From: a virus
Direction: 5' to 3' (one strand)
DNA: 36,941 nt
IMG/VR virus record: IMGVR_UViG_3300042987_003276
Coordinates: 1-36,941 of that record
The notes beneath the pieces were generated by a model. It was not told where the DNA came from and searched no databases. It saw nothing but the letters and a program-made list of their open reading frames with translations. Position numbers and translations under genes: made by a program. Below are positions 20,807 to 22,662 of the stretch, piece after piece; position 1 is the stretch's first letter, and each line of letters begins with the position of its first letter.

Positions 20807-20956
20807 ATGGAAAAAAAGAAACCCGTGCCTCCCAAGAAAGGTGCTGTGCCTCCTAAGGGCAAAGGTGGTGCATCTGCCAAGCAGACCGAAGCACGCGACA
20901 AGTTTAAAGAAATGATTGCCAAGAAAAAAGAAGCGGCAGCCAAAAAGAAAAAGTAA
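20807..20956 (+). CDS. Very basic lysine-rich small protein (49 aa)
   Basis: ATG 20807 to TAA 20956, preceded by a TATACTT box 20 nt upstream. About 37% of residues are lysine, with PPKKGAVPPKGKGG at the start and KEAAAKKKK at the end, like a histone tail or a DNA-condensing peptide. It may neutralise packaged DNA or bind RNA; no family is recognised. Confidence 0.7.
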   Translation: MEKKKPVPPKKGAVPPKGKGGASAKQTEARDKFKEMIAKKKEAAAKKKK

Positions 20957-20970
20957 CGCTCGTGTTGTGA

Positions 20971-21095
20971 TATCCTGACACACGGAGCAATTTCGCTCTA
21001 GGGGTAATAGTCGAAACCCCTTTCACGTTATGAATGTAGTGCTCACAAGAGCAAGGAAGGAAGCTAAGATCCCGGTATAACAACCGGGATTTTTT
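20971..21095 (+). ncRNA. Structured leader RNA with terminator (attenuator or riboswitch candidate)
   Basis: Four hairpins follow one another between two genes: GGAGC/GCTCT (20984-20999), AGGGGT/ACCCCT (21000-21021), GCTC/GAGC with an ACAA loop (21041-21052) and a strong terminator (21069-21095). The downstream gene's GTG start follows the terminator T run directly. The element is therefore either a small terminated RNA or a 5' leader whose terminator controls the gene at 21096. It does not match the glutamine-riboswitch consensus as I remember it. Confidence 0.55.
21069..21095 (+). terminator. Intrinsic terminator directly before a start codon
   Basis: ATCCCGGT (21069-21076) pairs perfectly with ACCGGGAT (21083-21090) with a 6-nt loop, followed by six T (21090-21095). 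The next gene's GTG is at 21096. Confidence 0.9.
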
Positions 21096-21752
21096 GTGGC
21101 ATATCTCAACCACAACCTACCTACCTTCACTTGCTATATACGCAACGAGTTTTTATACAACCACAAGCAAGGTCAGGGCGAGGTAACGCCTTGCGACGTA
21201 CACTCTGTAGCATCCCTGGAGAAACGCGTACCTTTGTTTGAGGTGTTTCTGGAGAATGGCGTCAACTGGACCCGTCGCCCAATCCATGCGTTGTGCTGGA
21301 AACCAGATGCACCAGTCCCTGTGTTGAACGAGTGTATGTGGTGGGATTGCTTCTCTCCCTATATCGATGTGCAGGTGCGCTCACGTCTTGCCAACTTACG
21401 CGCAGAGCTAATTAACTACAAAGAAGAACGCAATCAAGGCGTTTACATGTTCACGCTGGATTGGTCTTGGGAATCCAAAGCAACTCTTAACACTAACTTC
21501 AGCGAAACGCCTGAACATAAGTGTGCGCATTTCTTTCGTATGGACAACGGAAACTTCTACGCGTACCCCAATAACAAAATCATTTGGTACGATGACGCTT
21601 GGCTACGCAACAGGATTGATAAGAACCCTGGCTACGAGATTGACCTGAATGAGTACAGTGTTGAGAACTCACGGATGATTGAGACGTCAGATCATTTCAT
21701 GTATGACACGTTTTTAAAGTACCGTGATGTAAGTTGTGTGTATAATATGTGA
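21096..21752 (+). CDS. Conserved phage hypothetical protein (218 aa)
   Basis: GTG 21096 to TGA 21752. It begins with AYLNHNLPTFTCYIRNEFLY and contains HALCWKPDAPVPVLNECMWW and WSWESKATLNTNFSETPEHK. I recall a family with this start (C-Y-I-R-x-E-[FY]-L-Y-x-H) in many tailed phages, without a function. The start codon directly follows a terminator and has no Shine-Dalgarno sequence; the next Met is about 80 residues in, after the conserved beginning, so GTG is the likely start. It is Trp/Tyr/Cys-rich with no membrane segment. Confidence 0.75.
   Translation: MAYLNHNLPTFTCYIRNEFLYNHKQGQGEVTPCDVHSVASLEKRVPLFEVFLENGVNWTRRPIHALCWKPDAPVPVLNECMWWDCFSPYIDVQVRSRLANLRAELINYKEERNQGVYMFTLDWSWESKATLNTNFSETPEHKCAHFFRMDNGNFYAYPNNKIIWYDDAWLRNRIDKNPGYEIDLNEYSVENSRMIETSDHFMYDTFLKYRDVSCVYNM
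21741..21746 (+). promoter_or_regulatory. -10 box for the large non-coding RNA
   Basis: A perfect TATAAT overlaps the last codons of the gene ending at 21752. It would place a start of transcription at about 21753, exactly where the structured region begins. No good -35 box is seen. Confidence 0.5.
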
Positions 21753-22063
21753 GTTCCCCCTCTCTTTCGATGGGGCTCAGTTGGCCGCTGATGCGCCGGG
21801 GACCGATTCGGCAAGCGCGAAGGCTGGGTGACTCGTTAGGCAGATAGCCTAGAAGGAGAGCCCAAGATTAAGTCCAGGATTTATTCTGGCCTCTCCGGGT
21901 TACCAACCTTTGCTCTCTGTCAGCAAAGGCCCCGGAGTAACAATGATAGAGGTGCAGTCACTGTCTGGATACGCCTGGTTAACTCACAGCCCGATTGTCG
22001 GTAAGCCAGTTACACTGCATCCATCTATTAACAACACCCCCTATGCTTAGCTCCGATACGTAG

Positions 22064-22091
22064 ACCATTTTGTTGACGTCAACAAAATGGT
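22064..22091. repeat. 28-bp perfect palindrome
   Basis: ACCATTTTGTTGAC is followed directly by its reverse complement, with no mismatch. A TTTT run (22091-22094) follows, so in RNA it resembles a terminator hairpin, but it sits inside a closing ACCCCCT/AGGGGGT helix and is followed by more structured RNA. Confidence 0.9.
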
Positions 22092-22122
22092 TTTCAGGAT
22101 GATGCACAAACCAGGGGGTCAC

Positions 22123-22194
22123 TCGGTCGGTAGTCTATTGGTAAGGACGGGCAGACAATGCACGAGAAAGTTGGTTCGATTCCAGCACGACCGA
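22123..22194 (+). other. tRNA-like element with abnormal anticodon arm
   Basis: A 7-bp acceptor-like stem (TCGGTCG with CGACCGA), a D-arm (GTCT/GGAC around ATTGGTAA) and a good T-arm (GTTGG-TTCGATT-CCAGC, 22170-22186) are present. The part between the D- and T-arms cannot form a 5-bp anticodon stem with a 7-nt loop. It is either a decayed tRNA or a tRNA mimic within the large RNA. Confidence 0.55.
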
Positions 22195-22282
22195 TCAGGG
22201 TGCAACAAGGAACGTTGCATTAAACAAAGAGTCCCCTAGGCCGCATCGTAGATTATCGTAGGCGGATACTCTTGCCCTGCTC

Positions 22283-22354
22283 CGAGATGTAGCGCAGCGG
22301 TAGCGCATCTGCTTTGGGAGCAGAGGGTCACAGGTTCAATCCCTGTCATCTCGA
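22283..22354 (+). tRNA. tRNA-Pro (anticodon TGG)
   Basis: A complete cloverleaf: acceptor CGAGATG/CATCTCG (7 bp), D-stem GCGC/GCGC, anticodon stem TCTGC/GCAGA with loop TTTGGGA (anticodon TGG at 22315-22317), T-stem ACAGG/CCTGT with loop TTCAATC, and discriminator A. The 3' CCA is not encoded. It would read CCN proline codons, chiefly CCA and CCG, supplementing the host. Confidence 0.95.
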
Positions 22355-22407
22355 TATAACAAACATCAATAAAAGCGTTATATTAATTACACGAATAAAT
22401 TTTATAA

Positions 22408-22662
22408 ATGCCCTGGAGCCAATCCAAGGAACGCATCAACAAGAACCGACAAAAGCTTCTGGAGTACAAGAAGACTCTGCAATGCGAGAAGTGTGGTTTG
22501 AATGATCATCGTGTCCTTGAGTTCCACCACATTGGAGACAAGGACAATAACATCTCCAGCATGGTGAACCATGGCTACGCCTGGAAACGCGTAGAAGAAG
22601 AGATTAGCAAGTGTATACTATTATGTTGCAACTGTCACCGTCTTACCCATTACGTAGAGTAG
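22408..22662 (+). CDS. Small HNH endonuclease (84 aa)
   Basis: ATG 22408, 54 bp after the tRNA. Short zinc-ribbon HNH protein: C-x-x-C in LQCEKCG, EFHHIGDKDNNISSMV, then ILLCCNCHRLTHY with the second Cys pair and the last His. This is the compact HNH architecture of freestanding homing nucleases, often found next to tRNA genes and intergenic sites. It overlaps the Dps-like gene tail to tail by 20 nt. Confidence 0.88.
   Translation: MPWSQSKERINKNRQKLLEYKKTLQCEKCGLNDHRVLEFHHIGDKDNNISSMVNHGYAWKRVEEEISKCILLCCNCHRLTHYVE

Follow-up and report, generated by a model that had tools for sequence, protein, structure and literature searches.

Between a gene of the ferredoxin family and a proline tRNA gene, a 36.9-kb virus record carries a block of 530 nt in which no gene can be recognised, and the question is what kind of RNA such a block encodes and what it could be for. 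The record is IMG/VR IMGVR_UViG_3300042987_003276, and its whole stretch of 36,941 nt is referred to below as the window. One structural protein of the window is closest to proteins of Puniceispirillum phage HMO-2011 and of 170-kb Synechococcus phages, and over the 1.5 kb compared the window does not differ from L017, a 76.8-kb IMG/VR contig. The initial annotation, made by a model from the nucleotide sequence, described the block as one large structured noncoding RNA beside a tRNA and assigned it to the ROOL or GOLLD classes, or else to a new class. We conclude that the block is a noncoding RNA array within a cyanophage tRNA island. Its modules, A to E with a rare insert between A and B, follow one another head to tail up to the tRNA. 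We further consider it probable that this is a multi-module array directed against host defence, with C, and probably B, serving as decoy antitoxins for the Abi_2 (AbiD/AbiF-type) HEPN toxins of abortive infection.

Borders of the block

The block occupies positions 21753–22282 and starts directly after the TGA stop codon (21750–21752) of its upstream neighbour, a gene of a PHROG “ferredoxin” family at 21096–21752. No open reading frame of at least 60 amino acids lies within it, in agreement with the initial annotation, which had also pointed out a TATAAT ending 7 nt before the start. This box is at 21741–21746, with a similar box in the same place in most of the relatives read, and is a likely −10 element of a predicted promoter. 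The array is closed by a tRNA-Pro(UGG) gene at 22283–22354 (70.3 bits in Rfam), the sole Rfam match in the whole window at gathering score. The promoter element, the modules and the tRNA are all on the plus strand. Downstream of the array, at 22408–22662, is a gene for an HNH endonuclease of 84 amino acids. A reading frame like it is also found 3′ of the array in several relatives, and the HNH gene could aid a homing-type movement of the island.

Another structured element lies ahead of the ferredoxin-family gene, at 20968–21095 (GATATCCTGACA...AGGAAGGAAG). It is conserved and is followed by a terminator-like hairpin, and in L124, L129, L133 and L142 a similar element directly abuts the start of the array.

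An array of separable modules

Relatives of the block were found by an exact search for the 28-nt palindrome that it contains. This gave 23 IMG/VR stretches, ten of which are homologous to the block, one of the ten being the same phage as the window. In most relatives positions 21945–22134 are 96–98% identical to the window (94% over a longer stretch in L021); identity is about 68–75% in the stretches upstream and 82–88% where the HNH gene begins. Two parts of the window are missing from relatives. A sub-insert within module A at 21777–21824 (TCAGTTGGCC...GAAGGC) is lacking in eight of the nine relatives of the first alignment but occurs in further ones, and a rare 76-nt insert between A and B at 21869–21944 was not found in any of the nine. 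The only match to the 76-nt insert among the fetched contigs, beyond the longer contig of the same phage, is a partial one (L340:8220–8277, 79% over 58 nt). The insert folds into a strong hairpin and holds the GTTAC (21899–21903) and GTAAC (21937–21941) for which the initial annotation predicted a pairing; both are present as described, and both fall within the insert.

The modules are separable, measure about 40–125 nt each and are gained and lost singly. They recur in other orders in cyanophages, T4-like ones included, often with tRNAs directly adjacent. In a tally of 61 rows, which is incomplete in that its expressions miss variants (for example C of L021 and A of L109, L120 and L123) and which includes one false row (L102) and one unconfirmed row (L133+), units A, B, C, D, E and F stand in many orders with few or no bases between them. 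A-B-E is found in seven rows (one with a 703-nt gap), A-B-C in four, A-B-C-D-E-tPro in two (the window being one of them), A-B-C-E-F-tPro in two, A-B-tPro in two and A-B-F-E-tPro in one. Eleven rows have the order tPro-B|tAla-C|tGly-D-E or a near form, and for one of them, L131, the closest DNA is that of S-PM2, a T4-like Synechococcus phage, and of S-CREM1. Exchange also takes place inside modules: the UUAGGC-ANAUA-GCCUAG hairpin of A is found as the inner hairpin of B in L035, L037, L039, L040 and L152.

In L033, L035, L037 and L133 there are more structured stretches (for example AAGTCCTGGGTTTCCAGGCC and CACCACCCCTACTGCTCTG...) between B and C or E, and these look like modules as well.

This architecture bears on the class to which the block had been assigned. 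Like the block, ROOL and GOLLD are described as large noncoding phage RNAs near tRNAs and tRNA islands (PMC12286853), and a self-complementary arm in module C could dimerise. It is nevertheless very improbable, in our estimate, that the array is a member of these families or a scaffold like them, that is, a giant RNA that self-assembles into cages. Rfam 15 gave no match to either family, whether at gathering score in the whole window or at E-values up to 5 over 20950–22450, and where ROOL and GOLLD have a single fixed fold the block is a modular array whose parts are lost singly and reordered, changes that should disrupt a fixed fold able to form cages. The idea of one giant RNA was rejected on the same grounds. 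The suggestion of a new class is partly right: C is of the abiF kind, and the other modules have no Rfam family in the loci scanned, except that D gives a weak tRNA score. Other identities that had been raised, tmRNA, RNase P RNA and a group I intron, were rejected, none of them being matched by Rfam or ARAGORN.

The evidence for structure comes mainly from covariation. Of 100 dinucleotide shuffles of the whole block, 98 fold less well than the block itself (z −2.5). Taken singly, module C (z −4.26) and the rare insert (z −4.04) have energies clearly beyond shuffles, and those of A (−0.04), B (−0.87), D (−1.51) and E (−1.43) are not unusual. With four of six stretches within two standard deviations of shuffles, folding energy was dropped as main evidence. 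Compensatory changes in related phages, the check that the initial annotation had itself proposed, are abundant in E and B; they back E strongly, and B, C and D as well. The description of the block as large structured noncoding RNA beside a phage tRNA was right.

Module E (22197–22278), which is also found in S-CREM1 and DSL-LC03, is a three-way junction RNA. From 23 sequences RNAalifold predicts this fold, and 8 of its 23 pairs have changed on both sides. In the structure as drawn, 99.4% of cells are paired, against at most 50% when it is slid along the alignment, and the covariation score is 0.29 against 0.17 in shuffles; further pair types are no more numerous than in shuffles. Across 64 model matches (48 distinct), in an alignment fitted to the model, the share of paired cells is 98.8%, and both sides have changed in 117 cells where shuffles give 38, with 10 pairs changed against 8.2, a count that 19 of 500 shuffles reach. 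Module B (21945–22028) has a closing stem, GAUAGAG.. / ..AUCCAUCUAU, around its swappable inner hairpin. Over 19 sequences 93.3% of its cells are paired, 25 cells have changed on both sides against 7.2 in shuffles and the score is 0.32 against 0.11; by the number of pairs changed (4 against 2.9) it does not stand out. Module A (21753–21865) combines a CCCC/GGGG hairpin with a hairpin UUAGGC-AGAUA-GCCUAG, and CUCUC in the loop of the former can pair with a later GAGAG, so that a pseudoknot could form. Among its 17 aligned copies there is a change on both sides at 1 of 18 predicted pairs.

Module D (22124–22195) is tRNA-like and had no place in the initial annotation; S-CREM1 carries it alongside C and E. 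A permissive Rfam search reports it as a weak tRNA at 22124–22194 (31.1 bits, gathering 29), a faster search does not list it, and ARAGORN reads it as tRNA-Cys(aca). A hairpin with a GACAA pentaloop replaces the normal anticodon arm. There is no seven-nucleotide anticodon loop with U33, the “anticodon” that is read being preceded by G. In 19 distinct copies, collected by a search that demanded a GA(C/U)AA loop, GCA/UGC, CCC/GGG, GUG/CAC and GGC/GCC stems covary beneath that loop. Module D may serve tRNA enzymes as a punctuation mark, or it may be a decoy in the shape of a tRNA.

Modules C and B and the leaders of Abi_2 genes

Module C (22033–22123) consists of two arms, AACACCCCCUAUGC / GCACAAACCAGGGGGUCACU, and a loop that is drawn out into a further arm. 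The C unit of phage S-CREM1 is annotated as an abiF RNA and scores 52.2 bits against RF03085, for which the gathering score is 37. Other phage copies with simple loops also exceed this score (L035 52.2, L137 50.7 and L131 46.8 bits), and a copy with a short arm falls under it (L030, 23 bits). C of the window is below gathering score and is not listed as abiF at E-values up to 5 in an Rfam search of 20950–22450. It has the abiF arms and a long extra arm and is missed by the model, and is therefore called “abiF-type” here. The paired arms of abiF RNA, with conserved sequence between and around them, are present in C. Over 17 arm types from phages and hosts, 4 of 10 pair positions have changed on both sides, in a count made without shuffles, and one pair position has a T-T mismatch in 3 of the 17. 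The loop varies between copies, being short, a short arm, a palindrome, a changed palindrome or a longer insert. In the window the apex of the extra arm is a perfect palindrome of 28 nt (22064–22091, no strand assigned), which is absent or changed in other C copies. We firmly regard C as a homologue of the abiF type of RNA antitoxin. The authors of the S-CREM1 genome list its abiF RNA as probably functional in infection, and their treatment of it discusses regulation and not anti-defence (PMC9964418).

Thirteen viral stretches that have no relation to the block (L005, L007, L009, L010, L012, L015, L018, L019, L022, L023, L024, L026 and L027) contain the exact palindrome too, and two pairs of them have common flanks. 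We considered, and did not adopt, a reading of the palindrome as a mobile element or an operator. In L005, L019 and L023, and by eye in L024, it lies within a reading frame containing ...DHFVDVNKMV..., which we take to be a DinD motif. In a plasmid search the palindrome region gave a 91% match to genes annotated dinD.

Cellular counterparts of C and B were sought in 251 Cyanobium-family genomes, 11 of which contain the Abi_2 domain (PF07751), at 12 places. RF03085 gave four matches below its cutoff (31.5–33.6 bits), and the B model a single match, in genome G083 (33.8 bits, E 3.5e-4 for that genome), where the B-type RNA stands before an Abi_2 gene. All five RNA matches lie about 120–180 nt upstream of the Abi_2 domain on the same strand, and Pfam confirms Abi_2 in both open reading frames scanned. 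By eye, the leaders are RNA-like in all 11 Abi_2 genomes: six are of C type, those of G060 and G097 among them, four are a variant and one, that of G083, is of B type. The variant is an abiF-like leader, CAAGACC.GCCACGCCTCGGAGG...GCGCACCCCGGCGGGT (in short CAAGACC.GCC...GGCGGGT), found before Abi_2 in L240, L241, L249 and L250; no phage counterpart of it was found. The arms of C were compared between phages and hosts at 40 positions. The best phage–host pair, S-CREM1 and genome G060, agrees at 36 of them, and the C arms of the window have 78–85% in common with the three host forms.

For B, the phage form in L031 and the form in G083 have GATAGAG, CCCTG, TTGC...GCATCAC and ATCCA in common around a changed stem. 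In unfiltered searches of 22 Abi_2 loci the B model matched G083 only (E 1.1e-5); A gave no convincing match, and neither did E, whose best E-value (0.026) came from an A+T-rich stretch of L257 downstream of the domain start. Under strict filters, which make these weak negatives, there was no match to the A or E models in the 251 Cyanobium-family genomes and none to the B or E models in a sample of 234 genomes from the phylum. Eight plasmid Abi_2 loci gave no convincing match to the B covariance model. A B-like descriptor, drawn after inspecting the leaders that it matches and not fitting B of the window itself, matches 4 of 30 Abi_2 leaders (three from plasmids and that of G083), against 0.04 expected in shuffles and 0 of 86 control stretches. 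Outside the sample it matched none of five further plasmid leaders, one of which belongs to an Abi_2 protein within the range of the earlier hits (41% identical). As the descriptor is post hoc and failed out of sample, we do not take it to establish a B clade, and our estimates of probability allow for this failure. With the link coming from one host genome of 251, B is likely an RNA of the Abi_2 antitoxin type.

No toxin gene accompanies the phage copies. PF07751 was absent from 23 phage records, several of them fragments, and 26 Abi_2 proteins gave no tblastn match (E 1e-4) in 286 viral stretches, some of which come from the same contig. Since no Abi_2 gene was found in the phage stretches, the phage copies look like orphans. 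A position just upstream of an AbiF/Abi_2 gene, which is characteristic of abiF RNA, is thus seen in the cellular homologues and not in the phage copies. A toxin-less phage copy homologous to a host defence RNA is what characterises a defence-RNA mimic, and this is what was found for C, and for B through one host genome.

Such orphans could be leftovers of captured Abi_2 toxin–antitoxin loci that once served superinfection exclusion and whose RNA parts are now drifting. Abi_2-like genes do occur in some phages, the G083 protein being matched in 30 of 50,697 phage records, mostly streptococcal. Against drift, the arms and paired positions of the RNAs are retained under divergence, the stretch from B to C is more conserved than the upstream genes, and the 286 viral stretches hold no trace of Abi_2; we consider this origin improbable.

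Alternatively, the modules could act in cis within the tRNA island, separating, folding or protecting tRNA precursors. Module D would then mark cutting sites for RNase P and tRNase Z, and the resemblance of C and B to Abi_2 leaders would reflect ancestry only. In the tPro/tAla/tGly kind of row, B and C directly adjoin a tRNA at its 5′ end in 11 of 11 cases, D is tRNA-like, and of the 93 sites at which the 3′ arm of C was found in the 286 viral stretches, 41 have a tRNA beginning within 5 nt. The other 52 sites have no such tRNA, however, modules A, B and C of the window precede other modules and not tRNAs, and the cellular copies of C and B precede Abi_2 genes. We consider a role in cis an unlikely account of the array, if a better one than drift.

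Proposed decoy antitoxins and RNA islands

Decoy antitoxins remain the reading we favour. In Clostridioides difficile the abiF RNA is reported to neutralise AbiF, a toxin of the Abi_2 family, in cis and in trans by direct binding, with its stems being important (PMC12373285). On the phage side there are precedents in pseudo-ToxI of phage phiTE, an RNA mimic of an antitoxin (PMC3475682), and in the RNA anti-CRISPRs described below (PMC10651486). The mechanism that we infer, the simplest to fit the findings, from transcription and processing of the array to binding and neutralisation of the toxin, would run as follows. Array RNA would be made from its own promoter during infection, and the modules would be cut free at tRNA and tRNA-like ends. 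A host Abi_2 toxin would be restrained by the RNA made alongside it, and when the phage stops host transcription the supply of this antitoxin would fall and the toxin would be set free. Phage C and B could then occupy the Abi_2 toxins in place of the host antitoxin, so that the toxin stays bound and the infected cell is prevented from shutting down. Modules A, D, E and F may have this purpose too, or a related one. The joining of unlike modules into strings, and the exchange of modules and loops among near relatives, would be in keeping with an arms race. Counting against this reading are the presence of Abi_2 in only 11 of 251 Cyanobium-family genomes, the failure of the window's own C to be listed as abiF, the low score of the L030 copy, the link of B to a single host genome, and the lack of host matches to A and E.

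The array is best read as a modular form of phage mimicry of defence RNAs by RNA, and it differs from each of the systems that it resembles. Module C has the arms and pairing of abiF RNA (RF03085), its simple phage copies score above gathering and its cyanobacterial homologues precede Abi_2, but in the window it has no adjacent toxin gene, carries a long extra arm, scores below threshold and is joined to unrelated modules. As described for phiTE, pseudo-ToxI is likewise a noncoding phage RNA imitating the RNA antitoxin of a host abortive-infection system; its target, however, is ToxIN, and it consists of one repeat type expanded in escape mutants, whereas the array is made of unlike modules and is naturally widespread (PMC3475682). 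The RNA anti-CRISPRs, or Racrs, are solitary viral copies of a host immune RNA that act as inhibitors, but the account of them concerns mimics of CRISPR repeats and not of Abi_2 leaders (PMC10651486). Among the papers listed in searches of an open-access library, none was seen to report phage abiF or Abi_2 RNA decoys.

If C and B do neutralise Abi_2 toxins, part of the unexplained structured RNA packed in phage tRNA islands would have a function, and the remaining modules would be direct leads to new RNA-controlled immune systems. Stable noncoding RNAs inside a tRNA cluster are familiar from phage T4, in its stable RNAs 1 and 2. With C and B acting in this way, the phages would carry, as mix-and-match arrays, RNA countermeasures to a protein family regarded as the probable source of Cas13 (PMC12373285). 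A wider and more tentative proposal, to which we give somewhat less than even chances, is that cyanophage tRNA islands are RNA anti-immunity islands, whose interchangeable modules each mimic the RNA part of a different RNA-controlled defence. If so, C and B would serve two Abi_2 clades, D would perhaps be a tRNA-shaped decoy for tRNA-cutting toxins, and A, D, E, F and the rare insert would point to defence systems under RNA control that still await recognition, so that phage arrays could be read as a catalogue of host immune RNAs.

The same cyanophage tRNA islands also hold manA and wcaG RNAs (L003:2273–2370, L003:2743–2957, L004:4923–5020 and L137:1596–1806). These are structured RNAs too, but of other families, and have been proposed as cis-regulators (PMC2864571). 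In S-CREM1 and L137 they adjoin tRNAs, and they might be modules of the array kind and not plain cis-regulators.
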